Source: a virus. From it: 43,890 bases of DNA. The notes below the pieces were generated by a model. It was not told where the DNA came from, did no database searches, and saw nothing but the letters and a program-made list of their open reading frames with translations. The DNA is taken from positions 1-43,890 of IMG/VR virus record IMGVR_UViG_3300024518_001786. One strand, given 5' to 3'. Both the position numbers and the translations under genes were made by a program. Positions 2,942 to 18,056 of this stretch are shown one piece after another (within the stretch, counting starts at the first letter, position 1; each line of letters starts with the position of its first letter).

Positions 2942-3001
2942 GTGGTCCTGGTGGCATCAAGGGCCTACGAGGCGGACCCGGAGCGCCGAGGTACTAGCTG
3001 A
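2942..3001 (+). CDS. Possible 19-residue leader frame upstream of portal
   Basis: GTG preceded by AGGAGAG opens a 19-codon frame beginning MVLVASRAYEADP. Its TGA overlaps the portal ATG as TGATG. The portal lacks its own clear SD, so coupled re-initiation is reasonable, as proposed for 1412-1483. An ATG frame from 2913 in another register runs into the portal gene and looks like noise. Very short, so low confidence. Confidence 0.25.
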   Translation: MVLVASRAYEADPERRGTS

Positions 3002-4517: not shown

Positions 4518-6386
4518 ATGGTTGAGCACAACAACAGCATGGGAATTGCCCGGGTCGTGCTCGGTGCCGTAGAGGCTGCCGAGGTTGACTTCGACGGGCT
4601 AGTTGCCGACCAGTTGCTGTCGACACTGGACGACGGCGGCATCGCCTCGCTGGGTGTAGTGAGGGGCAGGGGCTCGTGGACTCCCGAGGGTGAGACGCTG
4701 AAAACAGCACGGCTGTCGGCACCGATCAGATCAGCTCAGTTTCACCCGACGTTCAACACCGTCAATCCCCGGTCCGTCGAGTGGGCTAGTCGCCGATCGG
4801 CGGCACTCATTCGTGAGGTATCGGCTGAGACCAGAGCCGGTGTACGCGCCATGATCGCTGCCGGTATGGTCGAGGGCATACCACCGCGTCGACTGATCAA
4901 CCTGATCGTACGTACAGTGGGACTACGGACTGACCAGGTGCGTGCGGCAGTCAACCTGTCAGCACGTCTAGCCGCAGCAAAGCCCGGGCAGATAGTCAAA
5001 GCAGGCGCACTCAAGCTCAAGGTCCCCAAGTCCGGCGCGAGCAAGTCGTGGATCAGCGCTCGACAACGCCAGTACATGGCGCGGCTACGTAGACAACGAG
5101 CCCTACTCATTGGCCGTACCGAGACGATGCACTCGGCCAACGAGGGCCAGCGACAGCTCTGGTTGCAGTCACGCGATAGGGGCGACCTGCCGTCGAGCGC
5201 CAAGCGTGAGTGGATCGTCACCCCCGACGAGAGACTGCGCGAGAAACACGCCGCGATGATCGGCCAGGTAGTCGGTATCGAGGAGTCATTTGTAGACCCC
5301 GAGGGCGGTGAGATCGAGCCTGGTGAGGAGCCCCACTGCCGCTGCGGTCAGGGCATCGCCAGCGACGCGTCGGTAGCTCGGTCGCAGTCCCAGCTACACG
5401 TAGGCCGCGAGACCAAGCGACTGGTCGGTGACGCGGCCATGACGGGTAAGCAGCTCGGACCGGCTGACATATTCAATTCGCTGCGCCGGTCGGAACAAAA
5501 GAAAATCAACGGGTACATAGAGCGTGCTGCTGCCAACGAGGCCGAGTACAAGACGATCATCGAGTCAGCAGCCAAGCGGCTGAAAATGACCACCGGAGAT
5601 TTTCTTGATCCGCAACCTGGCAAGTACTTTTTCGGTCCTCTCAAGCAGGCCGACCGCATCGCTGAGAAAGCCATCATTGACTACAAGGGAGCACTCAACG
5701 AGGTCAGCGACGTGCTGCGTATGACCTACATGGTACGTGATCCCGACGACGCGATGAGGCTGTACAGACTGCTCGACGACATCGACGACCCGGTCGGACT
5801 CAAGAATCGAATGCTGGAGCCCGGCATGGGCGGGTACCGGGATGTGATATTCAAGGTCACTCTCAAGGACGGCATGAGAGCCGAGGTACAGATCAACACT
5901 CGGTCGATGCTGGTTGCCAAGGAGGGGCCCGGTCACAAAATCTACGAGCGCATGAGAGTGTTGCGAGACGACAGCGCCGAGTGGGCCGCGCTCAACAAAG
6001 AGTCCGAGGAGCTGTACGGCAGGGCATGGGCCGAGGTGTGCCGAGAGTTTCCGCAGTTCGCTGGCTGCAAGGCGATTACGGTAGGCGGCGAGTCGTACCG
6101 ACATGCTGCCAGCGCACCCCTCTACTACCTCAAGGAGTCCGACATTCTCTATCGTCGCGAGGACGGCGACCCGGTGCGAATGCCCGACCAGGTGCTATGG
6201 CCGACCGGGTGGGCTCCGCTCATCGGGCAGTTGTCAATCTCACCATACGCTCACCCCACACCTACTACCCGAGGGTCAGCCGACGGCGGTGCTGACCCGC
6301 TACTACTCACCAAGCTGTCGCGCATCACAGTGGACGAAGCGGTCAGCATAGCTACTGGCAGAGGACTGCCTACCGACAAGTGGTAA
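4518..6386 (+). CDS. MuF head morphogenesis protein fused to RelA/SpoT-like domain
   Basis: 622 residues. Residues about 80-280 form the Mu F-like minor head domain: helical N-part, then LIGRTETMHSANEGQ, EWIVTPDERLREKH and the terminal EPHCRCGQG. Residues about 330-520 resemble a RelA/SpoT nucleotidyltransferase (pyrophosphokinase) domain: a basic KQADRIAEKA segment, NEVSDVLRMTYMV with D398 and R401, GGYRDVIFKV with Y440, EVQINT with E456, and GHKIYERMR at about 472. These match the Asp, Tyr and Glu of the synthetase fold. About 100 more residues follow. MuF proteins are packaged and can be ejected, so the domain may be a virion-delivered toxin or alarmone synthetase; that activity is inference. 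No strong SD is visible at ATG 4518. Confidence 0.8.
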   Translation: MVEHNNSMGIARVVLGAVEAAEVDFDGLVADQLLSTLDDGGIASLGVVRGRGSWTPEGETLKTARLSAPIRSAQFHPTFNTVNPRSVEWASRRSAALIREVSAETRAGVRAMIAAGMVEGIPPRRLINLIVRTVGLRTDQVRAAVNLSARLAAAKPGQIVKAGALKLKVPKSGASKSWISARQRQYMARLRRQRALLIGRTETMHSANEGQRQLWLQSRDRGDLPSSAKREWIVTPDERLREKHAAMIGQVVGIEESFVDPEGGEIEPGEEPHCRCGQGIASDASVARSQSQLHVGRETKRLVGDAAMTGKQLGPADIFNSLRRSEQKKINGYIERAAANEAEYKTIIESAAKRLKMTTGDFLDPQPGKYFFGPLKQADRIAEKAIIDYKGALNEVSDVLRMTYMVRDPDDAMRLYRLLDDIDDPVGLKNRMLEPGMGGYRDVIFKVTLKDGMRAEVQINTRSMLVAKEGPGHKIYERMRVLRDDSAEWAALNKESEELYGRAWAEVCREFPQFAGCKAITVGGESYRHAASAPLYYLKESDILYRREDGDPVRMPDQVLWPTGWAPLIGQLSISPYAHPTPTTRGSADGGADPLLLTKLSRITVDEAVSIATGRGLPTDKW

Positions 6387-6391
6387 AACAC

Positions 6392-7957
6392 ATGACCGAG
6401 AAACGATACCTCAGACTCACCGGGCTGGTAGACGTCGCGTCGATACGTACGGCCGAGTTCGACGACGAGACGCACGTGGTCGTGCCTGTCATCGCCTTGG
6501 TAGGCGACGCGGTGGTGCGACCGATGAACGCAAAGGGCTACGAGCTGGTGCCAGCCGAGCGACTAGCCGTAGCGCCCAAGGGCTGGAACGGTCGACCGGT
6601 AGTCCCCGACCATCCTGACGGCGGTACGTCGTCGGCGAACGAGCCCAGCATACTGGAGTCGTTCGCATTCGGTCAGATGTTCAATACGGTTTTCGAGGAC
6701 GGCAAGCTCAAGACAGAGGCGTGGCTGTCGCCGTCGAGAGCCGAGAAGGTAGGCCAGGAGGCTGTCGACGTCATCTCTCGGTGTGAGGCCGGTGAGCTGG
6801 TCGAGGTCAGCGTCGGTGCCTACGTCTCAGCGGAGAAACAGCCAGGCGTACACGACGGCAGACGCTACGAGTACGTGTGGCGAGATATAGTGCCTGACCA
6901 CCTGGCGATGCTGCCCGAGGGCGCAGAGGGGGCGTGCAGCGTCGAGATGGGGTGTGGGGGTCCGAGACTCAACCGAGCAGCCGAGCTACGCGCCGCGATC
7001 AAAGGAGACGACATGAGAGAGCCCACGATGTTTTCAAAGCTGCTCAGCGCCATGGGGTTTCGCCGAGCACAGGAAGGTACCAGCGACAGCGAGATCCACA
7101 GTGCGCTATGGGACGCACTACGCGCTGTCGAGCCGGGGTTCGACTACATCGCCGACGTGTTCCAAGACGATGGCACGGTCATCTACGTCACCATACCCGA
7201 GGACACCTTTCTGATGTTCCGTCGCTCGTTCTCGGTCAATGACGACGGCGAGGTCACCATCAGTGACGACGCCGAACAGGTCGAACCTGTGACAGAGTAC
7301 AAACCCGTAGCCGCCGAGTCGGGTGATGACGGGGCTACTGACGACCCGGGCAATGACCCGGTAACCGCCGCGCAAGGCGCTGGGGACGAAGATGACGCGT
7401 CCGACAGCGATTGTCCGTGCAATAACACAGGAGAAAAAAACATGACTGAGAAGATCAGGGAGCTGGTCGCACGGTTGATCTCCAACGAGGCGTCACCGTT
7501 CGACAGTGAGGACGAGGAGACCCTGGAGGGTTTCTGTGAGAAAAAGCTGGAGGCCATGGCTGCCAGCTTTGAGGAGGACGACGACGGCGATGACGAGGGT
7601 GTCGACGACGACGCTATCGACGTCGACGACGACACCGATCCGAAGCCCAAGACGGAGGACGAGTGGATGGCAGAGGCTCCCGAGCCGCTGCGGTCGATGG
7701 TCCTCGACTACAAAGCCGAGGAAGCGTCACGGCGGGAGGCTCTCATCGAGTCGCTCAGCAAGGCGCAGACCGTCATCAGCAAGGAAGCGCTGGAGACCAA
7801 GTCCACCGAGGATCTCCGCGCTCTCGCCGAGCTGACCGAGGTCGAGACCGATGCGTATATCGGTCGTGGCGTAGTCCCCGACGACGCTGCCAACGATCCG
7901 CCGAGGCCGTACTCGATCGCTCTCAACAAAGGCGACGACGCCGCCGTCGAGAACTAG
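6392..7957 (+). CDS. Prohead protease (DUF2213-like) fused to scaffolding domain
   Basis: 521 residues from ATG 6392 (GTG 6380 is possible; neither has a strong SD). Residues 1-190 match the DUF2213 phage protease family: VPVIALVGDAVVRPMNAKG, RPVVPDHPDGG with H74, ELVEVSVGAYVSAE with S140, and a C-terminal DHLAMLPEG segment. H74 and S140 are the likely catalytic pair. The protein then becomes acidic and low-complexity, and from residue 351 is a helical, Glu-rich scaffold-like region ending near VVPDDAANDPP. This is the classical protease-scaffold fusion: the scaffold shapes the procapsid and the protease removes it. A nested start at 7442 supports the layout. Confidence 0.85.
   Translation: MTEKRYLRLTGLVDVASIRTAEFDDETHVVVPVIALVGDAVVRPMNAKGYELVPAERLAVAPKGWNGRPVVPDHPDGGTSSANEPSILESFAFGQMFNTVFEDGKLKTEAWLSPSRAEKVGQEAVDVISRCEAGELVEVSVGAYVSAEKQPGVHDGRRYEYVWRDIVPDHLAMLPEGAEGACSVEMGCGGPRLNRAAELRAAIKGDDMREPTMFSKLLSAMGFRRAQEGTSDSEIHSALWDALRAVEPGFDYIADVFQDDGTVIYVTIPEDTFLMFRRSFSVNDDGEVTISDDAEQVEPVTEYKPVAAESGDDGATDDPGNDPVTAAQGAGDEDDASDSDCPCNNTGEKNMTEKIRELVARLISNEASPFDSEDEETLEGFCEKKLEAMAASFEEDDDGDDEGVDDDAIDVDDDTDPKPKTEDEWMAEAPEPLRSMVLDYKAEEASRREALIESLSKAQTVISKEALETKSTEDLRALAELTEVETDAYIGRGVVPDDAANDPPRPYSIALNKGDDAAVEN
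7442..7957 (+). CDS. Nested scaffolding protein from internal start
   Basis: An internal in-frame ATG is preceded by AGGAG and seven A, a strong initiation site inside the protease gene. It would yield a 171-residue acidic, helical protein starting MTEKIRELVARL, equal to the C-terminal part of the protease fusion. This parallels lambda C/Nu3, where the scaffold is made in excess from an internal start. The same sequence also forms A AAA AAC in the protease frame; a -1 slip there would add His-Asp and stop at 7447-7449, giving protease without scaffold. The internal start is well supported; the slip is speculative. Confidence 0.7.
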   Translation: MTEKIRELVARLISNEASPFDSEDEETLEGFCEKKLEAMAASFEEDDDGDDEGVDDDAIDVDDDTDPKPKTEDEWMAEAPEPLRSMVLDYKAEEASRREALIESLSKAQTVISKEALETKSTEDLRALAELTEVETDAYIGRGVVPDDAANDPPRPYSIALNKGDDAAVEN

Positions 7958-7971
7958 GACCCGCGAGGGTC
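7958..7971 (+). other. Short hairpin with GCGA tetraloop before the decoration gene
   Basis: GACCC-GCGA-GGGTC: a five-pair stem capped by a GNRA tetraloop, placed between the protease stop and the SD (AAGGAG) of the decoration gene. No U-tract follows, so it is not a terminator. It could stabilise or process the mRNA of the highly expressed capsid genes. Confidence 0.45.
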
Positions 7972-7985
7972 GATAAGGAGCTATC

Positions 7986-8447
7986 ATGGCAGTGACAAAG
8001 AACAACCCCAACACCATCCACTTGGGCGGCCCGATTACCCTGATCAACGAGTACGTTGCGCTCGGGGCGATCACGCCGGGAATGCTGGTCGAGTACCACA
8101 ACGATTCCGGCACCCTCAAGTGGGATGTCCACGACGCGGCTGCCGATGTGCAGATCCCGTACGTGGCACTCAATCAGGCCGAACTCAACAAGGAGGTCGA
8201 CGACGCGTATGCTGCCGGTGACCTCGTCGCCGTTGGCGCGTTGACAGTCGGCTCGCAGTTCTGGGGGATCATTCCTTCGGGGCAGAACATCAGCCCGGCC
8301 GCTTACCTACAGTCGAATGGCGACGGTAAGCTCAAGGCCGCAACCGCAGACACGGCCGCCGCCGCTGTCGCCAAGTTCCAGGCAGTCGAAACGTCTGGTG
8401 GCGCAGTGACCGCCGACACTCGTATTCGCGTCGAAGTGGTCCGCTAG
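7986..8447 (+). CDS. Head decoration protein
   Basis: 153 residues with a strong SD (AAGGAGCTATC). It sits directly between the protease/scaffold and the major capsid gene, where lambda-D-type or DUF2190-type decoration proteins are found. The sequence is small, Ala/Gly/Val-rich and predicted mainly beta, with a GDLVAVGAL segment and a C-terminal TRIRVEVVR ending typical of capsid cement proteins. It would bind the outer capsid lattice after expansion. The function rests on position and general character; no catalytic motif is present. Confidence 0.7.
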   Translation: MAVTKNNPNTIHLGGPITLINEYVALGAITPGMLVEYHNDSGTLKWDVHDAAADVQIPYVALNQAELNKEVDDAYAAGDLVAVGALTVGSQFWGIIPSGQNISPAAYLQSNGDGKLKAATADTAAAAVAKFQAVETSGGAVTADTRIRVEVVR

Positions 8448-8471
8448 GCCCCGACAGAGAGAGGAGAAAAA

Positions 8472-9485
8472 ATGAGTAACCATGCAACACGCTTCCTGTC
8501 GGGAGACGCCCGAGGCCGGGCCCCGATGCCTGGACTGGGCAACGCCCTACTCCGCTGCAACTCGATTGACGAGCTGCGCACCTTGGCACCTTTGCCGAAG
8601 GACGCGCAGGAACTCATCGACCGCGCAGTGGTCAGAGTCGGTCTCGATCGGCTCATCATCGTGCAGGACCTCATGGCCGAGGGCCTGACCTATTCGCTGC
8701 CGGACCCGCTGTCGGTGATGGAACTCTACTGGGAGCGTGCCGACGAGATCGGTGACGCCCGCCGTGTGATGCTTCCGCACGCACGCGGTGAGGACCAGCT
8801 CGCCGAGTTCGACGGTCAGCGCATTCCGATCTACGCAACCATTGACGACTTCACGCTCAACATTCGCACCCTGCGTGCGTCCGAGCGTGCCGGTGCGCCA
8901 CTCGACACTTTCCAGGTCGAGCAGGCAACCCGTCGCGTCAATGAGTCGATCGAGGATGCAGCGATCAACGGAGCAGGACTGGCGGTCGGCGGCAACAGCG
9001 CCCCGGGTCTGCTCGACGCTCCCAACAAGGGCACGTCCATCTACACGGGCGGCGAGGCTTGGGACGCGTCCGGTCACACTGGCGAGGAGATCCTCGGTGA
9101 TGTGCTGGCGATGGTCGACGTCGCGCAGGCGGCCAAGAAGTACGGCCCCTACAACCTGTACATTCCCACCGAGTACGGCAACAAGCTGAACGCCGATTTC
9201 AAGGCCAACAGCGCTCTGACCATCCGTCAGCGCCTGGAGGAGCTGGAGGTCGGTGGTCGCAACCTGCGCATCCGTGTGGCAGACCTGTTGCCGGACGACC
9301 GCACCGCCCTGGTGCAGATGACCTCTGACGTCATTGACGTCATCGTCGGCCAGGAGCCTACGGTCATCTCGTGGGAGAGCGGCGATGGGTTCGTGCGTTA
9401 CTTCATCGTGATGGCGTTCGTGGTCCCGCGTGTACGCGACGACTACGACGGCAACAGCGGCATCGTTATCGGCTACATCAGCTAA
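8472..9485 (+). CDS. Major capsid protein, encapsulin-like HK97 fold
   Basis: 337 residues with a strong SD (GAGAGAGGAGAAAAA). Position after protease, scaffold and decoration protein identifies the major capsid protein. The middle segment (ASERAGAPLDTFQVEQATRR, then ESIEDAAINGAG and a glycine-rich SAPGLLD) resembles encapsulins of the Linocin M18 type (A-R-R-x-E...ED..I..G....GI), which share the HK97 fold. In this phage it must be the virion shell because a portal and scaffold accompany it. No peroxidase or other cargo gene is present. Confidence 0.85.
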   Translation: MSNHATRFLSGDARGRAPMPGLGNALLRCNSIDELRTLAPLPKDAQELIDRAVVRVGLDRLIIVQDLMAEGLTYSLPDPLSVMELYWERADEIGDARRVMLPHARGEDQLAEFDGQRIPIYATIDDFTLNIRTLRASERAGAPLDTFQVEQATRRVNESIEDAAINGAGLAVGGNSAPGLLDAPNKGTSIYTGGEAWDASGHTGEEILGDVLAMVDVAQAAKKYGPYNLYIPTEYGNKLNADFKANSALTIRQRLEELEVGGRNLRIRVADLLPDDRTALVQMTSDVIDVIVGQEPTVISWESGDGFVRYFIVMAFVVPRVRDDYDGNSGIVIGYIS

Positions 9486-9534
9486 ATAGCGAGGCCCTGT
9501 CTCGATGAACAAACCGAGCACAAGGGAGGTAGGT

Positions 9535-9759
9535 ATGCTCGTCAGGCTGATCACCAAAGAAGGCAGTCACACGTACCAGTGTGAGCACGTAGAAGTTCTC
9601 GAAAGTGACGAAGGGGTCAGGGTGTCGGTACTCCCCAAGGGGCCGACACTCCGACTGCCAGAGGACGGAGAGAGAATCTACATGATGAACGATCGAGGAG
9701 ACACGGTGGACAGCTACCGCTGGCCGCCAAAGGTACCCAAGGAGGTAGCACATGAGTAG
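9535..9759 (+). CDS. Small hypothetical protein after capsid
   Basis: 74 residues from the ATG preceded by GGGAGGTAGGT; an earlier ATG at 9505 lacks an SD. Predicted mostly beta (MLVRLITKEGSHTYQCEHVE, then a DGERIYMMND segment). It lies between the capsid and the connector genes and overlaps the next start by eight bases. I do not recognise it. Its position suggests a head-associated or head-completion accessory role. Confidence 0.6.
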   Translation: MLVRLITKEGSHTYQCEHVEVLESDEGVRVSVLPKGPTLRLPEDGERIYMMNDRGDTVDSYRWPPKVPKEVAHE

Positions 9760-10105
9760 GAGCCCGTACAGGTTGATTTCCGGTCGTCACGGTAGGTTTG
9801 AGGATCTGCCAGGCGGCAAAAAGAACGTCGTCTATGGCCCCGGTGACATCATCGGACTGACACCCGCCGAGGCAAAGAACCTTGCCGGTCGTGTCGTTCC
9901 ACACACCGAGACGTCAGCGGCCGACGCCAAGGAGTGGGAGTCGGTAGTCAGCGGGTCGAACGCTCGCGAGCTGGTCGGTATCATCAAGGAGCTGGACGAC
10001 GCCGACGACATCGCTGCTCTGCGACAGGCAGAGGAGGCGAGAAGTAGACCGCGATCGAGCGTGCTGAAAGCAGCCGACACGAGGCTGGCCCAGCTCGCCG
10101 AGTAA
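9752..10105 (+). CDS. Hypothetical head-region protein
   Basis: 117 residues with SD AAGGAGGTAGCAC. The N-terminal 50 residues look like a small beta domain (a VVYGPGDIIGLTPAEAKNLA segment); the rest is helical, charged and ends in AADTRLAQLAE. Similar small proteins often sit between the capsid and the first connector. Translation is coupled to the preceding gene by an eight-base overlap. No catalytic or metal site is seen, and the exact role is not assigned. Confidence 0.65.
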   Translation: MSRSPYRLISGRHGRFEDLPGGKKNVVYGPGDIIGLTPAEAKNLAGRVVPHTETSAADAKEWESVVSGSNARELVGIIKELDDADDIAALRQAEEARSRPRSSVLKAADTRLAQLAE

Positions 10106-10117
10106 GGAGACATCGCG

Positions 10118-10462
10118 ATGACAGCTACGTACGAGCCGTCACTACCGACTGACAGGGACTGGCTGCGGCTGACTATCGGTGACACCGCGACGGCTAGTGC
10201 GTTACTACAGGACGAGGAGATCGACGCGGTACTGACTGAGGAGGCCAACAAGCACCTTGCCGCAGCCGAATCGCTGTCGATACTCCGCACGAGGTGGAAC
10301 TCTCAGGGCGCGGGCGTGCTGACCAAACAGGTGTCGAAGCTGCGTATCAGCTACGGCACCGACTCGTCAGCGGCAGAGGCACTCGACGCACGTATCAAGC
10401 AACTACGAGCCCGAGGCGCGTATCTGCTGTCGCCCACACCTGGAGTGCTCAAAGTGTTGTAG
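10118..10462 (+). CDS. Head-tail adaptor (connector) protein
   Basis: 114 residues, mainly helical. The start DRDWLRLTIGDT followed by LLQDEEIDAVL is the recurring pattern of phage head-tail adaptor proteins (HK97 gp6 / SPP1 gp15 type), which bind below the portal and extend the channel. The C-terminal half has long helices (AAEALDARIKQLRARG). SD is AAGGAGACATCGCG. Its place after the capsid gene agrees with this role. Confidence 0.75.
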   Translation: MTATYEPSLPTDRDWLRLTIGDTATASALLQDEEIDAVLTEEANKHLAAAESLSILRTRWNSQGAGVLTKQVSKLRISYGTDSSAAEALDARIKQLRARGAYLLSPTPGVLKVL

Positions 10463-10473
10463 GAGGTAGGTAA

Positions 10474-10680
10474 ATGTCGATGGTCGAAACATCGCGAGGA
10501 CTGGTCCGTACGGTAGTGACCCTCACCCTGGTCGGCACCATGTGCGGGTGCGTGATCCTGTTCGCAGTCACTGGTGCGAAGGAAGCGCTAGAGGCCGCAT
10601 CGTTCATCGGTGCCCCGGCCGGGTTTGTCATCAACGCGTGGTTTGAGGCGAGACGGCAGGAGCGGGCGAATGGGGGCTAA
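10474..10680 (+). CDS. Small two-helix membrane protein (holin candidate)
   Basis: 68 residues with SD TAGGAGGTAGGTAA. Two probable membrane helices are visible: TVVTLTLVGTMCGCVILFAV and a second, weaker one around FIGAPAGFVINAWF, followed by a basic tail. Size and topology suit a class II holin, but many phages have similar small membrane proteins of unknown use, and no endolysin is adjacent. It overlaps the next gene by 11 bases. Confidence 0.55.
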   Translation: MSMVETSRGLVRTVVTLTLVGTMCGCVILFAVTGAKEALEAASFIGAPAGFVINAWFEARRQERANGG

Positions 10681-11083
10681 GTGGGTAGGGTTGCCGCTCG
10701 GGTTGGAGTTGGTCGGAGGACTGAGGAAAGCGATCTGGCGTACAGCCAGGGGGCTGACGTTCCTTTCCAAACACGGCCTGTGTAACGTACCTGCCCGATG
10801 GGTGACGGACCTGACGTCGATCCCCTGGTGGCTGGTGTGGAAACGACGCGAGGGTGATCACACACCGGCATCGGTCATTCACGATTGGTGCTACGCCAAG
10901 GGGTATGTGATCGGTGGGTTTGACGACAAGGTGCCGATCACTCGTAAGCAGGCAGATCGTATCTACCTGGCCGCTATGCTGTCGCTGGGGGTGAGGCCGA
11001 GGGTAGCCAAGTTGATCTATCGAGGCGTGCGGCTGGGCGGGTTGCTCGTGTGGCGTAGATACCGGAGGCGAGATAGTGGCTGA
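10670..11083 (+). CDS. DUF1353-family phage protein
   Basis: 137 residues from ATG 10670, which lies in the preceding gene's end behind GCAGGAGCGGGCGA. The family pattern is clear: V-x-D-L-T-S-I-P (WVTDLTSIPWW), SVIHDWCYAKG, then ITRKQADRIYLAAMLSLGV. These Asp/His positions (D in VTDL, H and D in IHDW, D in QADR) are the conserved residues of DUF1353, whose biochemical role I cannot state. The C-terminus is very basic. Such genes are common in phage structural operons, often near lysis genes. Confidence 0.75.
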   Translation: MGAKWVGLPLGLELVGGLRKAIWRTARGLTFLSKHGLCNVPARWVTDLTSIPWWLVWKRREGDHTPASVIHDWCYAKGYVIGGFDDKVPITRKQADRIYLAAMLSLGVRPRVAKLIYRGVRLGGLLVWRRYRRRDSG

Positions 11084-11240
11084 CGCAACACTCGACATAG
11101 TCAAGGCGATGAGGCGCAAGACGATCACCGTGCAGCTCAAACGGGTGCCTGAGTTCAGGTTCCGAGTGAGAGTCGCCAAGCTGCTTATCCGGCTGGCGGG
11201 TCGAGTGCTGGGCGTCAACACTGAGGTAGTCGATGCCTAG
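11076..11240 (+). CDS. Small basic protein, unknown function
   Basis: 54 residues starting at GTG 11076 behind CCGGAGGCGAGATA and ending at 11240. It begins MADATLDIVKAMRRK and ends VLGVNTEVVDA. It overlaps its neighbours by eight bases on each side, the normal coupling in this operon, which supports it despite its size. The middle is basic and amphipathic (FRFRVRVAKLLIRLAGRVLG) and could lie on a membrane or bind nucleic acid. The family is not recognised. Confidence 0.6.
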   Translation: MADATLDIVKAMRRKTITVQLKRVPEFRFRVRVAKLLIRLAGRVLGVNTEVVDA

Positions 11241-11577
11241 CGAGATAGTCAGCGACCTGGCCGACCTGATGTCGGAGACGCTGATTGCCACGCCCGGCTA
11301 CACTACCGGGTTCGGGGCGTTCGTAGCGTCGGGCACGGTGCTGAATATCTCGTGTTTGATCGAGGGAGACATCAAGCAAGTACGCGACCACTCAGGCGAC
11401 GAGGCGGTGTCCAGCGTCCAGGCGCATCTCGATGGTGACTACAGTCTGACGACTACCAAGCACCGCTACACGCTGCCGTCCCGGTTCCCTGATCCGAGGA
11501 CCGACATCGAAGCCATCGCGATAGAGTACGCGTCGGACGAGAACGGAGCCCACCACGCGGTGGTAATGCTGCCATGA
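11233..11577 (+). CDS. Probable head closure / stopper protein
   Basis: 114 residues with a mixed helix and beta pattern. The N-terminus describes a helical segment (SDLADLMSETL), then beta strands ending in EAIAIEYASDENGAHHAVVM. This C-terminal pattern (S-D-E-x-G-x-H-H-A-V-V) recurs in small connector proteins next to head-tail adaptors. The likely role is closing the head channel or joining head to tail. Evidence is position plus general pattern, so a different neck protein is possible. The next gene overlaps by four bases. Confidence 0.55.
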   Translation: MPSEIVSDLADLMSETLIATPGYTTGFGAFVASGTVLNISCLIEGDIKQVRDHSGDEAVSSVQAHLDGDYSLTTTKHRYTLPSRFPDPRTDIEAIAIEYASDENGAHHAVVMLP

Positions 11578-11807
11578 GCGAGCCGTGGATAGAACCCGAC
11601 TGGGTGGTCCCTGACTGGATCGCCACTACCGTGCCCGCGTCGACGGCTCTGTTGGCCGGGGTAGGCGACCACACCTACGAGGCGTCGCACGTGGTGCCTG
11701 TGCATGACGAAGTAGTCAGCGCAGATACTCACTCGACCACAGGAGGGTTGTCGACTCACCAGCAGCTCGCCGGTCGAGCGTCCCACTCATACGGAGCCAG
11801 CCTATGA
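11574..11807 (+). CDS. Small virion-region protein with WIExDW motif
   Basis: 77 residues, ATGA-coupled to the previous gene. Residues 5-16 read WIEPDWVVPDWI, a tryptophan series with five-residue spacing. Almost the same series occurs in the tail-tip protein at 23353 (WIESDWIEEDWI). The rest is low in hydrophobics and rich in His/Ser/Thr. I do not recognise a family. The shared motif suggests a common binding partner or the same assembly contact. Confidence 0.55.
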   Translation: MSEPWIEPDWVVPDWIATTVPASTALLAGVGDHTYEASHVVPVHDEVVSADTHSTTGGLSTHQQLAGRASHSYGASL

Positions 11808-12124
11808 CCGTCAGCACCGACACCATCACGATCTACAAAGGTGAGGACCTAGACCTCGATTTCACCATGGACCCGGTCGAGGACATCACCGGCTGGGGCA
11901 TCGAGCTGAACGTCAAGGGAGCGTCCGGCGTGCTGATCACCAAGACGGGAGTCATCGTCAGCGGCGCGGCCGGTACGTTTCAGTTTCCGCTCGTGGACAC
12001 CGACAGCGACTCGCTCAGGATAGGTATCTATCTCTACGACGTGTGGCGCACCGACGCGGGTGCCGAGAGAGTACTGGCGGTTGGCGACTTCGCGGTAGAG
12101 GATGTAGCAAGGGTTGTGGTGTGA
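11804..12124 (+). CDS. Beta-sandwich protein, BppU/Ig-like N-terminal type
   Basis: 106 residues, ATGA-coupled. Repeated short strands (TITIYKGEDLDLDFTM, GWGIELNVKG, then IGIYLYDVWRTDAG) resemble the N-terminal BppU-type or Ig-like modules in phage baseplate, fibre and head-fibre proteins. It ends in AVEDVARVVV. It directly precedes the sugar-modification cassette with a GTGA overlap and could be an exposed virion target of it; that is inference. Confidence 0.5.
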   Translation: MTVSTDTITIYKGEDLDLDFTMDPVEDITGWGIELNVKGASGVLITKTGVIVSGAAGTFQFPLVDTDSDSLRIGIYLYDVWRTDAGAERVLAVGDFAVEDVARVVV

Positions 12125-12630
12125 GAGCGTTTCTGGTCCTCGGGCCAGAGTCTACCGGTACGCGGCTTGCGACTCGCATACTGATGGCTGGTGGCTGTCA
12201 CGGGTCAGACGGGCACTACCAGCCGGTAGGTAACGGGTTTGGGGATCTCGACCCGGTGGTGTGGCGGCGCAGCGTGCCGCACAATGACACGTGGCCGAAG
12301 TTGTCCCAGCTCGTAGCCAAGTGTGGTGGTCGTGAGGTCCACGTCGTCATTACTGTACGCGACTGGTGGTGTACTGCCATGTCGCAGGTCGCTGTCGGTC
12401 ACGCCGAGACGCTGGAGCGAGCGATCGTCAATACACGCCGCGCCTACGGTCGGATTTTCTGCCAGGTGGCAACGCTGGGTATCCCGTACACCGTGCTCAG
12501 CTACGAGTCGTTCGTTCTCAACCCGCGAGAGACACAGACCGCACTACTACGATCACTCGGCTTACAGGTCCCTAGCGAGCTGGTGGTCATACGCAACGAG
12601 AACGACAAGCACTGGAGGACAGGTAGGTGA
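12121..12630 (+). CDS. Sulfotransferase-like P-loop protein
   Basis: 169 residues from GTG 12121 (GTGA overlap). The N-terminus MRAFLVLGPESTGTRLATRI is the phosphosulfate-binding loop pattern of sulfotransferases (G-x-x-S-x-G-T). The segment VVITVRDWWCTAMSQ at about 80-95 fits the 3'-phosphate-binding R-D-x(5,8)-S motif. At 169 residues it is shorter than most sulfotransferases, with the usual core but little else. Likely reaction: transfer of sulfate from PAPS to a sugar or protein. A different P-loop transferase is the alternative. It begins a six-gene overlapping cassette containing two glycosyltransferases. Confidence 0.6.
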   Translation: MRAFLVLGPESTGTRLATRILMAGGCHGSDGHYQPVGNGFGDLDPVVWRRSVPHNDTWPKLSQLVAKCGGREVHVVITVRDWWCTAMSQVAVGHAETLERAIVNTRRAYGRIFCQVATLGIPYTVLSYESFVLNPRETQTALLRSLGLQVPSELVVIRNENDKHWRTGR

Positions 12631-13553
12631 GCTATCAGGACGTGGTTGTGGACGGTGTACTAGTCAGGGGGCAGCGGGAGTGCGCTAGTCGGTGGGCGGC
12701 GATCAGTAAGGTGCTGGCGAAGTACGACCGGCGATTTACGGTGCTCGACCTGGGTGCCAGTGAGGGGTACTTCTCGCTGCGTGCCGCGTCGGAGTTCGAC
12801 TGTGTGGCGGTGATGATCGAAGGCGGTAAGCAGCTACTATCACTGTGCAGTGAGAACGTAGGACTCGACACCATACTGCTCCAGCGCCGGGTGAGCATTC
12901 GCGATCTGGAGCAGCTCGCTACCTGTGAGCACTTCGACGTCGTACTGGCACTCAACGTCCTGCATCATTTCGTCGAGCCCGAGCGGGTCGTGCGTGCGGT
13001 CATGTCGCTCGGTGACCACACCATCATCGAGACGCCAGCACCTGACGACAGCGGTGCGTGCGGACAAGCTGTCATACCAGAGCTACACAAGCTACTAGCC
13101 GACCGAGGCGGGGACCTGATCGCTACTACTCGGTCACATGTCAGTGACACCTACCGTCCCATGTGGCTGTTCGACACTCCCAAGCGGACGATCACCCGAG
13201 CCTACATCGACGTCCCGCCACGCGCTCCACTCGGGCCTGTGCGTATCGAGTCCACCTACGACTACAAACAGATCACGTTCGACCGCAAGTCCGAGACTAG
13301 ACCCTGGCTCCACGGCATCAACCTGCGCACCTACCAGATGCTGGGTGGGGCCTACCCGTTACCTGGTGACGTAGCCGACCAACTGGAGGCTGTCACCCTC
13401 AACGCCGATATACCCCACGGCGACATCCAACCGTGGAACTTCATCATGGACGGCGGCGACCTGTGGCTGATAGACGGCGGTGACGATCGCGCCATCTACG
13501 ACGACGTCAAGGGGCTGGCGGCTACCGTACTGTCGGTCAGGAGCATGGAGTGA
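12627..13553 (+). CDS. SAM methyltransferase fused to kinase-like C-terminal lobe
   Basis: 308 residues, GTGA-coupled. Residues 35-190 are a class I methyltransferase: motif I VLDLGASEGYFS at about 39-50, an acidic IEGG after strand 2, and ALNVLHHFVEP at the motif IV-post region. Residues about 255-300 contain HGDIQPWNF (H264, D266, N271) followed by LWLIDGGDD. This is the catalytic loop and metal-binding Asp of the aminoglycoside/choline kinase fold. The kinase N-lobe is not evident, so the C-terminal part may be a truncated or minimal kinase. It probably modifies a glycan made by the neighbouring genes. Confidence 0.75.
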   Translation: MSYQDVVVDGVLVRGQRECASRWAAISKVLAKYDRRFTVLDLGASEGYFSLRAASEFDCVAVMIEGGKQLLSLCSENVGLDTILLQRRVSIRDLEQLATCEHFDVVLALNVLHHFVEPERVVRAVMSLGDHTIIETPAPDDSGACGQAVIPELHKLLADRGGDLIATTRSHVSDTYRPMWLFDTPKRTITRAYIDVPPRAPLGPVRIESTYDYKQITFDRKSETRPWLHGINLRTYQMLGGAYPLPGDVADQLEAVTLNADIPHGDIQPWNFIMDGGDLWLIDGGDDRAIYDDVKGLAATVLSVRSME

Positions 13554-14407
13554 GAGTTTACGTCCAGCCCGAGCCCGAGGACCTGTCACGCGCCATGTAC
13601 CGGGTGGCCAACGCACTGACGGTCCACGCACCGGCTCGCATCGAGATCGTGGACGACCTGGCCGACGCCGACCTCCAGGTACTCCACACCATCGGGCTGG
13701 GTGCCTGGCGGTGGATAGAGGCCCCCAGGTACGCGATGATTCAGTACTGCCTGACCAGCGCCCCGCCGACCCCAGATAGCCCGCGTACCTTTGACGGCTT
13801 GTGGGCCGACGCTGAGCTGGTGTGGAGCTACTACCCGATCGAGCACAGGCTCAACGGAACGCCGTTCTACCACGCGCCACTCGGGATTGATCACGAGTTC
13901 ACCAAGTCCGCACTACCCACAAACCGCACGGTGGACGTGGTGACGTCTGGGTACGTGTCGAGCGCTCACGGTGAAGCGATCGAGGAGGTAGCTATCGCGG
14001 CTGGTCAGCTTGACAAGACGGTCGTACACGTCGGTCCGCCGTCAGTCGTCTACCCCAGCCCGCCGGGGTGGAACTCGGTATCAGGCATCAAGGACCCGGT
14101 ATTGGCCGCGCTCTACCGACGCGCAAAGTGGGTGTCGGGTCTACGGCACACGGAGGGTTTCGAGCTACCGTGCGTCGAGGGGCTGGCGTGTGGGGCGAGA
14201 CCTATAGTGTTCGACCGGCCCGACATGCGGCAGTGGTACGACGGTCTCGCTGTGTTCGTGCCCGAGTGTCACGGCGACGCGCTGGTAGACGAGCTGGTCA
14301 AGGTGCTGTCGACTACCCCCGACCCGGTGACCGATAACGAAAGGTCTAGGGTGCTGGATGTATTCGACTGGTCGAAAATAGCGGCCGGGTTTTGGGAGTG
14401 TGTATGA
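13550..14407 (+). CDS. GT-B glycosyltransferase (GT4-like)
   Basis: 285 residues, GTGA overlap. It has the two-domain GT-B character: an N-terminal half with short strands and APLGIDHEF at the domain junction, and a C-terminal half with VVHVGPPSVV, then RHTEGFELPCVEGLACG, the E-x7-E signature of GT4 transferases, and RPIVFDRPDM. It should transfer a sugar from a nucleotide donor onto an acceptor. Given the position inside the late operon, a virion protein is the likely acceptor (inference). It is shorter than usual (350-400), mostly through a reduced N-domain. Confidence 0.75.
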   Translation: MRVYVQPEPEDLSRAMYRVANALTVHAPARIEIVDDLADADLQVLHTIGLGAWRWIEAPRYAMIQYCLTSAPPTPDSPRTFDGLWADAELVWSYYPIEHRLNGTPFYHAPLGIDHEFTKSALPTNRTVDVVTSGYVSSAHGEAIEEVAIAAGQLDKTVVHVGPPSVVYPSPPGWNSVSGIKDPVLAALYRRAKWVSGLRHTEGFELPCVEGLACGARPIVFDRPDMRQWYDGLAVFVPECHGDALVDELVKVLSTTPDPVTDNERSRVLDVFDWSKIAAGFWECV

Positions 14408-15258
14408 GCCTTGTCAAATACATGTCCCGCTACACCACCGACTACCTGGTGCTGGGGTCAGCCGAGGAGTTTGAGCGAGACATCAGGGGTCTGGTCGGTG
14501 TCGAGGACGCCGAGGTGGAAGGGTACGACGACACACTAGCCCAACGCGATCAGTCGGTGAAATTCTACTGGGGGCATAACCACGACTTCGGCACTTTCAA
14601 GATGGCGGGCATGATGGGTGACAGACATCTTACTATCGTCGGCGACTTCGTTGATCGCGGTGCTGAGTTCAAGGGCAAAAAGGTACTAGACGTCGGGTGC
14701 TGGACCGGTGGCACATCGCTGCTGTTAGCTGGCATGGGTGCCACGGTGATCGCCATCGAGGAGGTGCGCAAGTACGCCGATTGTATTCGGTTCTTGGTCG
14801 ACTCGTTCGGGGCCGGTGGCCGTATAGGGGTGCAGCATTGCTCTCTCTACGACGCAGGCTCTGGGTATGCAGTCACCCACGACGGTACCTACGACTGCGT
14901 GCTGCTGTCCGGTGTGCTCTACCACGTCAGCGACCCCGTGCTCGCTCTGCGCATCTGCTACAACCGGCTAGGTAGTGGCGGTCAGCTACTCGTCGAGAGC
15001 GCGGGCATGGTGGGCGACGAGTCGGTGTGTCGGTACTCAGGACCTACCCAGGCGTTCGGTGGCACCATCGAGGACCGCAGCCGCGCCGGGTGGAATTGGT
15101 TTACACCGACGGCAAAGGTGCTCAAGCAGATGCTGCACGATGTCGGGTTTGCTGAGGTCGGTATCGAGTGGCACCGACACCGGCTGTACGCTATAGCAAC
15201 CAAGCACGGTCACGTGGACATGCTGCGGGCCGGGCTGTCAAACAGGAAGGTAGGATGA
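14404..15258 (+). CDS. Class I SAM-dependent methyltransferase
   Basis: 284 residues from the ATGA-coupled start. Motif I is KVLDVGCWTGGTSLLLAGMG (about 96-115), followed by IAIEEV after strand 2 and DCVLLSGVLYHVSDP as motif IV. The lead region YWGHNHDFGTFKM resembles methyltransferases of the CmoB-like group that act on small hydroxyl or carboxyl groups, though here the partners are glycosyltransferases. O-methylation of a virion sugar is the likely role (inference). DNA methylation is unlikely: no N6/N4-adenine or cytosine motif is present. Confidence 0.8.
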   Translation: MSLVKYMSRYTTDYLVLGSAEEFERDIRGLVGVEDAEVEGYDDTLAQRDQSVKFYWGHNHDFGTFKMAGMMGDRHLTIVGDFVDRGAEFKGKKVLDVGCWTGGTSLLLAGMGATVIAIEEVRKYADCIRFLVDSFGAGGRIGVQHCSLYDAGSGYAVTHDGTYDCVLLSGVLYHVSDPVLALRICYNRLGSGGQLLVESAGMVGDESVCRYSGPTQAFGGTIEDRSRAGWNWFTPTAKVLKQMLHDVGFAEVGIEWHRHRLYAIATKHGHVDMLRAGLSNRKVG

Positions 15259-15259
15259 A

Positions 15260-15526
15260 ATGAGGATGACAGAGGTGGAGTGTAAGCAGAAAGTGATCAT
15301 CGTGAGCAACCCAGACGAAGCGATGGCACTGATCGTCGAGGACGGCAAAGTGGTCAAGGCAACGTGTGCTGACTACATTGGAATGGATGAGCTGAGCGCG
15401 AGGTGTGCTGCCACCTCGGTGATGCGGTATGTGATCGGGACCGAGCCGCACCCAGAGACAGGTCAATCGGACGGGTACCCGCAGTCTATCGGAGTCAGGC
15501 CGACCGGCCTGGGGGTGGTAGCGTGA
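15260..15526 (+). CDS. Small hypothetical protein in glycan cassette
   Basis: 88 residues starting one base after the previous stop, with GGAAGGTAGGATGAA upstream. The segment IIVSNPDEAMALIVEDGKVV resembles a small beta-hairpin fold; there is no transmembrane segment or catalytic motif. It overlaps the following glycosyltransferase by four bases. Its place between a methyltransferase and a glycosyltransferase implies a part in the same pathway, perhaps a binding or chaperone protein, but nothing shows this. Confidence 0.6.
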   Translation: MRMTEVECKQKVIIVSNPDEAMALIVEDGKVVKATCADYIGMDELSARCAATSVMRYVIGTEPHPETGQSDGYPQSIGVRPTGLGVVA

Positions 15527-16755
15527 GGATCCTTTTTGTCGGCGATGCTGTTTGCTCGTCGGGGTTCGCTCGCTGCACCCACGCAGCTTGTGACGAACTC
15601 CACGCGGCAGGTCACGAGGTCCACGTACTAGGCATCAACTACTACGGCGACCCACACACATACCCGTACCCGATCTGGCCGTGCTTCCAGCCGCTGGACA
15701 GCGGCCGTGACCCGTTCGGTAGTACCCGCCTGCCAACGATGGTGAGAAAGCTACAGCCCGACGTGGTGGTGTTGCTCAACGATCCGTGGAACGTACCCGC
15801 GTACATGAAGGCGCTAGACGCTGACGGCGAGGAGTTCGCGCTGACCGGCAAGGCAGGACAAGCGGACAGAAACATGCCACCGGTCATCGGCTGGCTGGCG
15901 GTCGACGCAAAAAACCAGCGCGGTGATGGTCTCAACGATCTAGCCCACGTCGTCGTGTGGACCCAGTTTGCCGCCGACGAGCTACAGGCAGGCGGCTACG
16001 AGGGCGGGTGCTCGGTAGTACATCTAGGTGTCGACCACACCGTCTATGCGCCCGCCGAGGACAAGGCCGAGTGCCGCAGACGCACGTGTCCGCCCGACAT
16101 GCCCGAGGACGCGTTTCTGGTCGGTGTCGTTGGTCGCAACCAACCGCGCAAACGACTCGACCTGACCCTGGAGTACTTCGCCGACTGGGTCAACCGGTTC
16201 GACGTCGACAATGCCCAGCTCTATCTCCACGTCGCGCCGACCGGCGACAAGGGCGTAGACATCGGCAGCCTGGTCAGGTACCACGGGCTCAAAAACAAAG
16301 TGATCGTGGCGACTCCCCACATCTCTGCTGGCGTATCGAACGAGCACATGGCAATGGCCTACAACGCGTTTGACGTCTACCTGTCGACGTCTCAGGGCGA
16401 GGGGTGGGGGCTACCTGCCCTGGAGGCGATGGCGTGCGGTGTGCCGTGCGTGGTGCCTGACTGGTCCGGTCTCGGTGACTGGGTAGGCGACGCGGCGGTC
16501 AAGGTATCCTGCACATCTACGGCTCTCAGTGCTCCTCTCAATGGTTTGGCGTATACTGTTGGCGGCGTTCCAGATCGTTCCGGTACGATGTGGGCACTTC
16601 AAAACCTGTACCGGAGCAGCGATATGCGAGCGACCTACCGCGAGCGCGGACTCAACCTAGCCTCACAGCACTCGTGGTCCCAGGCAGGCAAGCAGTTCAG
16701 ACAGGTAGTCGAGTCGGTCGTCACTGTCGACGCCGTAGGAGGAAAAACAGCGTGA
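15523..16755 (+). CDS. GT4-family glycosyltransferase
   Basis: 410 residues from GTG 15523 (GTGA overlap); full GT-B length. The N-domain starts MRILFVGDAVCSSGFAR (Gly-rich acceptor loop), with a repeated ACDELHAAGHEVHVLG helix-strand. The C-domain has VGVVGRNQPRKRLD (phosphate-binding Arg/Lys), then STSQGEGWGLPALEAMACG, the EGWGLP...E donor signature near residues 288-305, and VVPDWSG. A retaining transferase using a nucleotide sugar is expected. The segment LNDPWNVPAYMKALD resembles mycofactocin- and mannosyl-type GT4 enzymes only superficially. It ends the cassette, overlapping the neck gene. Confidence 0.85.
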   Translation: MRILFVGDAVCSSGFARCTHAACDELHAAGHEVHVLGINYYGDPHTYPYPIWPCFQPLDSGRDPFGSTRLPTMVRKLQPDVVVLLNDPWNVPAYMKALDADGEEFALTGKAGQADRNMPPVIGWLAVDAKNQRGDGLNDLAHVVVWTQFAADELQAGGYEGGCSVVHLGVDHTVYAPAEDKAECRRRTCPPDMPEDAFLVGVVGRNQPRKRLDLTLEYFADWVNRFDVDNAQLYLHVAPTGDKGVDIGSLVRYHGLKNKVIVATPHISAGVSNEHMAMAYNAFDVYLSTSQGEGWGLPALEAMACGVPCVVPDWSGLGDWVGDAAVKVSCTSTALSAPLNGLAYTVGGVPDRSGTMWALQNLYRSSDMRATYRERGLNLASQHSWSQAGKQFRQVVESVVTVDAVGGKTA

Positions 16756-17162
16756 CGTTTGTGCTGAAAGGGGTAGACGCGATGAGGCGCAGGATTCTGC
16801 AACTCGCCCGTCAATTCCCTGGTCAGGTCGACCGAGCACTGGGCAACGAGGGCGAGCTGGTAATGACCCGGTCGAAGCGAGACCACGTGCCCGTCGACCT
16901 CGCCGCGCTTATGAACTCCGGTCACGTCGACCCGCCCAAGCGACGCGGCAAGGACGTCGAGGTCAGGCTGTCGTACGGCGGACCAGCAGCCCCCTATGCC
17001 GAGGCGGTACATGAGCATCCGTCGTCGCACTCACCGCCGAGCTGGCAGGGTGTGGTCGTAGTGTTTCATCCTAGTGACCGAGGACCCAAGTATCTACAGC
17101 AGCCGCTGATGGACGCCGTCGCCGGTATGGACAATCGAATCGCCATGGAGCTGAGGTTGTAA
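16752..17162 (+). CDS. HK97 gp10-like neck / minor capsid protein
   Basis: 136 residues from GTG 16752 with SD GTAGGAGGAAAAACAGC, overlapping the glycosyltransferase stop (GTGA). Pattern of the HK97 gp10 family: helical N-terminus (MRRRILQLARQFPGQVDRAL), HVPVDLAALMNSGHV, LSYGGPAAPYAEAVHEHP and a C-terminal GPKYLQQPL. These proteins join the connector and the tail terminator. Its return after six non-structural genes shows that the glycan cassette was inserted into the head-tail gene order. Confidence 0.8.
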   Translation: MTFVLKGVDAMRRRILQLARQFPGQVDRALGNEGELVMTRSKRDHVPVDLAALMNSGHVDPPKRRGKDVEVRLSYGGPAAPYAEAVHEHPSSHSPPSWQGVVVVFHPSDRGPKYLQQPLMDAVAGMDNRIAMELRL

Positions 17163-17570
17163 ATGTCGACTCGCTACCTGGAGATACTCGCACTCCAGCG
17201 GCCGTTTCCATTCAACACGGACGCCAACAACAGGATCATGTTCTCGGTCAATTTCGAGGCGCTGGCCGCAGCTCCGTCCGACGACTGGGAGCAGGAGTTG
17301 GTCAAGCTACTGACCACGGCCGGACTTGCTACCTTCGGCACCGACACGTTCATCGGTCCAGGTAGCGACCCGCCGTCTGGAGCAGGCCCGTACATCACCA
17401 TCATAGACACTGGGGGACGAGCCCCCGACGAGACACACAACGGCTCGATCTATGAGCGACTCTCCGCTCAGATCGTCATCCGAGCCGTCGACTATCAAGT
17501 GGCCCGTACGCGAGCCCTCGCCGTGTGGAGAGAATTGCACGGCCAAAGGAATGTCACAGTGGCCGCATAA
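17163..17570 (+). CDS. Tail terminator / minor tail-joining protein
   Basis: 135 residues starting directly after the previous stop. C-terminal pattern GGRAPDETHNGSIYERL, IVIRAVDYQVARTRALAVWR with ELHGQRNVTV recurs in the small proteins between gp10-like and tube genes and fits the tail-terminator family (lambda U / SPP1 gp17 type). It would cap the tail tube end and attach it to the head. The assignment is by order and pattern. No other gene in the block fits the terminator role better. Confidence 0.7.
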   Translation: MSTRYLEILALQRPFPFNTDANNRIMFSVNFEALAAAPSDDWEQELVKLLTTAGLATFGTDTFIGPGSDPPSGAGPYITIIDTGGRAPDETHNGSIYERLSAQIVIRAVDYQVARTRALAVWRELHGQRNVTVAA

Positions 17571-17588: not shown

Positions 17589-18056
17589 ATGACACAAGCT
17601 GTAGCCGGTCATGGCGCAACGATCGCCATGGAGCAGGACCCCACCGGGTCGCCCGGCGTGTTCACGGTCATCGCGGAGCTGAATGGTGACATCACACCGC
17701 CAGCTCTCACTCGACCGGAAACTGAGGTAACCCCTCACCAGGACACGATCGACTCGTGGGTGCTGGGTGGGTTGACTAGAGGGCCCTTCTCGTTCTCGGT
17801 CAACTACATTTTCAACACCGCGACGCACGACCACTCGACTGGTCTGCACTACGCAATGATCAACAACGAGACCCGCGGTTTCCGTTTCCGTGGCCCTGCC
17901 GGGTCAGCCGACACGGACGAGTGGATCATGTCTGGTCAGGTGCAGAACATCGAGCAGGTCAACCCGGTCCGTGAAGGTGCGCGTAGTGCCGCCATCACGG
18001 TCAGGCTGTCCGGCGCAATGAAGGTCGACGGCACCGCCTTTGGTGTGTCGAGCTAA
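17589..18056 (+). CDS. Major tail tube protein
   Basis: 155 residues with SD TCAGGAGGTAACACA, a strong site for a highly expressed gene. Mostly beta, beginning MTQAVAGHGATIAMEQDP and containing TRGPFSFSVNYIFN and EWIMSGQVQNIEQVNPVREG, the typical features of siphovirus tube proteins. It precedes the G/GT chaperone and tape measure, the invariant order tube-chaperone-tape measure. Stacked hexamers would make the long tail. Confidence 0.88.
   Translation: MTQAVAGHGATIAMEQDPTGSPGVFTVIAELNGDITPPALTRPETEVTPHQDTIDSWVLGGLTRGPFSFSVNYIFNTATHDHSTGLHYAMINNETRGFRFRGPAGSADTDEWIMSGQVQNIEQVNPVREGARSAAITVRLSGAMKVDGTAFGVSS

Follow-up and report, generated by a model that had tools for sequence, protein, structure and literature searches.

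A question raised by this locus is what a set of sugar-modifying enzymes is doing among the head and tail genes of a phage. Virus record IMGVR_UViG_3300024518_001786 (43,890 bases, 61% G+C; this whole stretch is referred to here as the window) belongs to an uncultured tailed phage, with a virion module of siphovirus type on the plus strand and replication genes on the minus strand. A preliminary description of this DNA placed six genes at 12121-16755, between connector and neck genes, and open frames, beginning with GTG or ATG, are present at exactly these coordinates. The genes, here named g1 to g6, encode a predicted sulfotransferase-fold protein, a methyltransferase fused to a short kinase-like domain, a GT4-like glycosyltransferase, a second methyltransferase, a small protein, and a GT4 glycosyltransferase. 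We hold, with moderate confidence, that this cassette is a virion-glycosylation operon that is translated with the head-tail genes late in infection. Support for this reading comes from the coupled gene chain, the fixed slot occupied in two phage groups, the match of g2 to the chain terminator WbdD, the fold of g1, the lack of membrane segments, and a precedent in mycobacteriophages.

Coupling of the cassette to the structural genes

Nine successive genes lead from a stopper gene (starting at 11233) to the neck gene (starting at 16752), and every junction is a 4-base overlap except that between g4 and g5, which are separated by a 1-base gap; the overlaps noted in the preliminary description thus extend along the cassette with the exception of this pair. 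Promoter- and terminator-like sites in the stopper-to-neck region were not above chance, and, given the coupling, it is reasonable to infer joint expression with the structural genes. Late, virion-directed expression, as proposed earlier, is the best reading of this coupling. Identical DNA is present in contigs from two further IMG sample identifiers, making an assembly artefact unlikely. No hydrophobic membrane segment was found in any of g1 to g6. The G+C content by codon position in the cassette genes matches that of the structural genes, and recent acquisition of the cassette was set aside for this reason. A DNA-level search of phage records using the cassette gave no match, single-sequence scans returned only near-identical copies, and g1, g3, and g5 had no tblastn match in isolated phages. 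The small gene directly following the stopper gene, also coupled to the cassette, encodes a 77-amino-acid protein with 1.3% Lys/Arg and 22% Ser/Thr that may be a small virion protein or a glycan acceptor.

Enzyme assignments

In a phmmer search of solved structures, the top-scoring match of g2 was WbdD (E = 2.9e-5), the O-antigen chain terminator of Escherichia coli O9a (PDB 4AZS, 4UW0), which phosphorylates the terminal mannose and then methylates the phosphate and has the same domain order. A profile of four phage g2 homologues, comprising that of the window and those of uncultured phages L107, L143, and L144 (45 to 52% identity), matched WbdD in the PDB with an E value of 2e-13, compared to 7e-4 for the next methyltransferase; both domains were collinear, and the kinase catalytic loop was aligned in the correct order. 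Mutants of WbdD in Y16, H132, H133, or R203 lose phosphate methylation but keep phosphorylation, and the kinase active site is formed by D351, N356, and D369, with W355 stacking on Y230 (PMC3482155). Read from the 4uw0 numbering, the g2 equivalents of these methyltransferase residues (Y3, H113, H114, and R177, respectively), of the kinase residues (D266, N271, and D283), and of the stacking residue W355 (W270) are conserved without change in all four phage homologues, as are R17, C19, R22, and H171 of the methyltransferase pocket (R31, C33, R36, and H197 in WbdD) and K214 and E223 of g2. Two other residues of the WbdD pocket, N34 and Q35, have not been kept.

The differences from WbdD lie at the C terminus and in the setting. 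WbdD recruits the polymerase through a C-terminal coiled coil, whereas g2 (308 amino acids) ends about 25 residues past the DFG-like Asp, has no coiled-coil tail, and is encoded in a phage virion operon. Since this tail is missing and the kinase domain is shortened to about 125 residues, we call g2 WbdD-like in catalysis rather than a WbdD. The methyltransferase-kinase label given to it initially is upheld in this sharper form. As a miniature relative of WbdD, g2 predicts a methyl-phosphate cap.

For g1, sequence matches argue weakly for a sulfotransferase: Pfam Sulfotransfer_3 was matched with an E value of 0.006, the homologue in phage L096 matched the Stf0 sulphotransferase family (E = 0.002), and a profile search against PDB sequences returned nothing useful, so that only fold comparison was informative. 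An AlphaFold model of g1 (three homologues; predicted local distance difference test [pLDDT] score, 83.1; predicted template modeling score, 0.82) was compared to the PDB using Foldseek, and ranks 1 to 14 were all 3'-phosphoadenosine 5'-phosphosulfate (PAPS) sulfotransferases (best E = 2.7e-4), the top matches including SULT1A3, Teg12, Stf0, and TPST2. Several of the viral fold matches, from phage and giant virus, are likewise annotated as sulfotransferases. The 3'-phosphate site of sulfotransferases has an Arg and a Ser spaced by 8, and R80 and S88 of g1, eight residues apart, are invariant in three phages. The phosphosulfate loop reads G-[P/A]-E-S-[T/S]-G-T-R-L in all three homologues, with Gly-Thr retained but without the usual Lys/Arg.

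Both glycosyltransferases contain an invariant EX7E motif (E202 and E210 in g3, E293 and E301 in g6). The g3 protein matched phrog_4356 (E = 2.7e-5) and, as a profile, a D-inositol-3-phosphate glycosyltransferase (E = 9e-8), and g6 matched phrog_2170 (E = 1.8e-37) and PF13692 (E = 1.5e-14). The best PDB match of g6, and thus its nearest solved structure, is B736L of chlorovirus NY-2A (E = 8e-9), for which guanosine diphosphate-mannose is the best-bound ligand (PMC9614988). The g4 methyltransferase matched PF08003 (E = 3.5e-11) and tRNA mo5U34-methyltransferase (E = 6e-10) and has homologues in L107 and in L101, where it is fused to g3. No Pfam, PHROG, or tblastn match was found for g5, nor any homologue among the g3 loci described below. 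The sulfotransferase-, GT4-, and methyltransferase-like labels of the preliminary description are supported.

The slot in related phages and its surroundings

A scan with g3 identified 44 uncultured phage loci. The loci were selected by similarity to g3 or g6, and many are fragments; their genes were called by simple heuristics and compared using iterative profiles built from the window proteins, and family names at variable positions were checked on representatives only. A neck or terminator gene could be recognized in 30 loci (26 non-redundant at 90% identity), which were considered readable. In all 30, the g6-type GT4 gene immediately precedes the neck (or terminator) gene, one small gene lying between it and the neck gene in loci of the L017/L116/L127 type. 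It is usually preceded by the g3-type GT4 gene, and the two are fused in L017, L018, and L116. In a second phage group (L129 and L135), the g3-g6 pair is located between the major capsid gene and the adaptor-neck-terminator tail genes.

The remaining cassette genes are sparser. Three phages carry g1, three carry g4, and the g2 fusion occurs at four distinct loci, in all cases within the slot. L107 carries g2-g3-g4-g6-neck, which is the window order minus g5; L096 has g1 directly after the stopper gene; and L101 has g1 followed by the g3-g4 fusion. Such recurring order indicates that the arrangement of the cassette is not due to chance. Other finishing enzymes vary in the positions before or between the two GT4 genes and include a CAP59-like transferase of 230 amino acids (21 loci), a hexapeptide acyltransferase (19 loci), a DegT sugar aminotransferase (13 loci), Methyltransf_24, B12-radical S-adenosylmethionine (SAM), GT2, FkbM methyltransferase, and GT11 proteins. 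By these comparisons, the GT4 pair appears to be a constant core and g1, g2, g4, and g5 an exchangeable finishing set, as would be expected if these loci produced variable glycans destined for the virion.

Some slots have further features of their own. Radical SAM enzymes, which bring unusual chemistry to a phage locus of this kind, are encoded in L017 (3911-5509), L116 (4710-6308), and L103 (6775-7566), those of L017 and L116 being B12 binding. The recurrence of DegT aminotransferases with hexapeptide acyltransferases (L015, 3-998; L105, 6624-7700; L108, 1294-2382; and others) predicts a phage-made N-acylated amino sugar. In L101, about 7.5 kb (5090-12657) including a GH108 lysozyme-like gene separates the g3-g4 fusion from g6.

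The features of the window are listed in Table 1. The C-terminal half of the Mu-F-like head protein has a weak RelA/SpoT domain match (residues 375 to 475, E = 2.6e-4), suggesting that a protein carried in the capsid is fused to an effector domain of the (p)ppGpp (guanosine penta- or tetraphosphate) synthetase type. In L142 (2177-2593), L143 (800-1216), and L115 (4452-4853), a major-tail-protein-like gene is located between the protease and decoration genes, apart from the tail module. The actinobacterial host implied by the preliminary description was not borne out, as the portal is nearest to those of Halorubrum and Brevundimonas phages and the match to Mycobacterium cluster J phages is limited to one cassette gene. 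The similarity of the portal to that of Halorubrum phage Hardycor1 raised the prospect of a haloarchaeal host, which was set aside on account of the basic nature of several proteins (neck protein isoelectric point, 9.5). DNA polymerase matches were uninformative on the host, and two scans of genome contigs found no cellular relative.

Table 1. Cassette and structural genes of the window
Feature	Position	Strand	Remarks
Portal	3001-4506	+	
Mu-F-like head protein	4518-6386	+	
Protease-like gene	6380-7957	+	
Decoration protein	7986-8447	+	
Major capsid protein	8472-9485	+	
Head-tail connector/stopper-like, left structural flank	11233-11577	+	phrog_3881, E = 0.007; homologues in L096, L017, L112, L116, L121
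Small gene between stopper and g1	11574-11807	+	Coupled
Second small gene between stopper and g1	11804-12124	+	Coupled; phrog_1084
g1, predicted sulfotransferase-fold protein	12121-12630	+	169 amino acids
g2, WbdD-like methyltransferase fused to short kinase-like domain	12627-13553	+	Residues 1-183 and 184-308
g3, GT4-like glycosyltransferase	13550-14407	+	285 amino acids; conserved core
g4, SAM methyltransferase (CmoB/DUF1698-like)	14404-15258	+	284 amino acids
g5, no recognized family	15260-15526	+	88 amino acids
g6, GT4 glycosyltransferase	15523-16755	+	410 amino acids; conserved core
Neck/tail completion protein, right structural flank	16752-17162	+	phrog_5, E = 1e-4; directly 3' of g6-type GT4 in related loci
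Tail terminator-like	17163-17570	+	phrog_2595/10344
Major tail protein	17589-18056	+	phrog_158
Tape-measure-like protein	from 18822	+	1,505 amino acids

Proposed function, alternatives, and precedents

In the mechanism that we propose, g3 and g6 would add sugars from host nucleotide sugars onto a virion protein, for which the decoration, capsid, neck, and major tail proteins are candidates. In g2, the kinase-like domain would place a phosphate on the terminal sugar and the methyltransferase domain would methylate it, ending the chain, while g4 would O-methylate a sugar and g1 would add sulfate from PAPS. Nucleotide sugars, PAPS, SAM, and adenosine triphosphate would all be supplied by the host; no nucleotide-sugar gene is among the annotated genes of the window, and the sugar donors must therefore come from the cell.

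That absence is itself one of several points that count against a virion-glycosylation operon. The kinase-like domain of g2 has about 125 residues, compared to about 250 in WbdD, gave no kinase match above threshold in a Pfam search, and belongs to a protein that was modeled poorly by AlphaFold (pLDDT, 48.7). The superposition of g1 on sulfotransferases is loose (template modeling score, 0.5 to 0.6). Its loop (GPESTGTRL) also lacks the Lys/Arg that is normally present in the 5'-phosphosulfate loop (PxSGTT type), and although the predicted fold is that of a sulfotransferase, its activity is accordingly regarded as putative.

The enzymes might instead modify a host surface polysaccharide, such as lipopolysaccharide (LPS), capsule, or teichoic acid, altering the receptor against superinfection or lysis from without, in which case the late-gene location would be positional only. 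Phage serotype-conversion cassettes are established, and WbdD, like many GT4 enzymes and methyltransferases, acts on LPS, yet in two phage groups the location within the virion module is constant, the cassette encodes no flippase, polymerase, or membrane-bound transferase or any hydrophobic segment, and late expression is a poor means of keeping other phages out. On account of the constant structural location and the lack of membrane proteins, we regard this explanation as rather unlikely. Somewhat less probable again is that g3 and g6 add sugars to the virion as proposed whereas g1 and the kinase-like domain of g2 are inactive or otherwise active (g2 might, for example, be a simple O-methyltransferase that retains a sugar-binding vestige), with neither sulfate nor phosphate being added. 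The g1 loop without a basic residue and the short kinase domain would fit such an outcome, as would the precedent of O8 WbdD, a simple methyltransferase without a kinase (PMC3482155), but D266, N271, D283, K214, and E223 of g2 have remained invariant at 45 to 52% identity, and R80/S88 of g1 have kept both their identity and the spacing seen in sulfotransferases. Modification of phage DNA (glycosylated hypermodified bases) or a role in antidefense is very improbable: g6 also matches Pfam GT4-conflict, though it scores lower there than with general GT4 models, and g2 and g4 match PADLOC mad2, though over the general methyltransferase fold only, whereas sugar enzymes account for the more specific matches, the cassette is placed in the virion module, and the window genes scanned included no recognizable base-modifying gene of the hydroxymethylase or thymidylate-synthase-like kind.

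Virion glycosylation by the cassette has precedents. Phage-encoded glycosyltransferases are reported to modify capsid and tail-tube proteins in the mycobacteriophages Che8, Corndog, and Myrna (Freeman 2023, as cited in PMC12363180), whereas in the window the glycan is predicted from genes; that account names no sulfotransferase or WbdD-like enzyme, in contrast to the cassette. In cluster J (Omegavirus) phage Thibault, gp12-gp19, located between the major capsid and head-tail adaptor genes, include kinase-like gp12, methyltransferase gp13, and glycosyltransferases, and the first two resemble g2 divided into two genes at a comparable location. Thibault gp13 has 33% identity to the g2 methyltransferase, and gp12, a small APH-type kinase, matches the g2 C terminus over the catalytic loop when compared by hhalign (E = 1.2e-4 and probability 55%, against 0.25 for an unrelated control profile). 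The two are separate genes in reversed order, there is no g1 or g4, and the glycosyltransferases are not g3/g6-like. In chlorovirus PBCV-1, the viral methyltransferase A064R acts on the terminal sugar of the capsid glycan, ending it with a methyl group (PMC7826918), and the glycosyltransferases are likewise virus encoded, but this is a eukaryotic virus with an N-glycan and no kinase cap. A literature search of partial coverage returned nothing relevant on phage sulfotransferases or methyl-phosphate glycans. To our knowledge, neither a WbdD-type methyl-phosphate cap nor sulfate has been described on a phage particle. Glycosylation of capsids and tails by phage enzymes is already known, and what is new here is the recognition of g2 as a small relative of WbdD.

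The virions of this phage probably bear a coat of chemically capped sugars, and the enzymes that finish it are exchanged from one phage to another. More tentatively, it is possible that the slot is a fixed part of the virion operon in which the constant GT4 pair builds a particle glycan and exchangeable finishers determine how it ends in each phage, which in the window would be with a WbdD-type methyl-phosphate cap plus sulfate. An antibody shield or receptor mimicry, suggested at the outset, gained no support in this analysis. In the literature consulted, proof that phage enzymes glycosylate virions comes from only a few mycobacteriophages, and the occurrence of the slot in at least 26 non-redundant uncultured phages suggests variable particle "serotypes" comparable to bacterial O-antigen. 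The WbdD-like enzyme gives this suggestion a specific chemical prediction, a methyl-phosphate, and, if it is true, the logic of O-antigen chain termination would have been carried over to virus particles.

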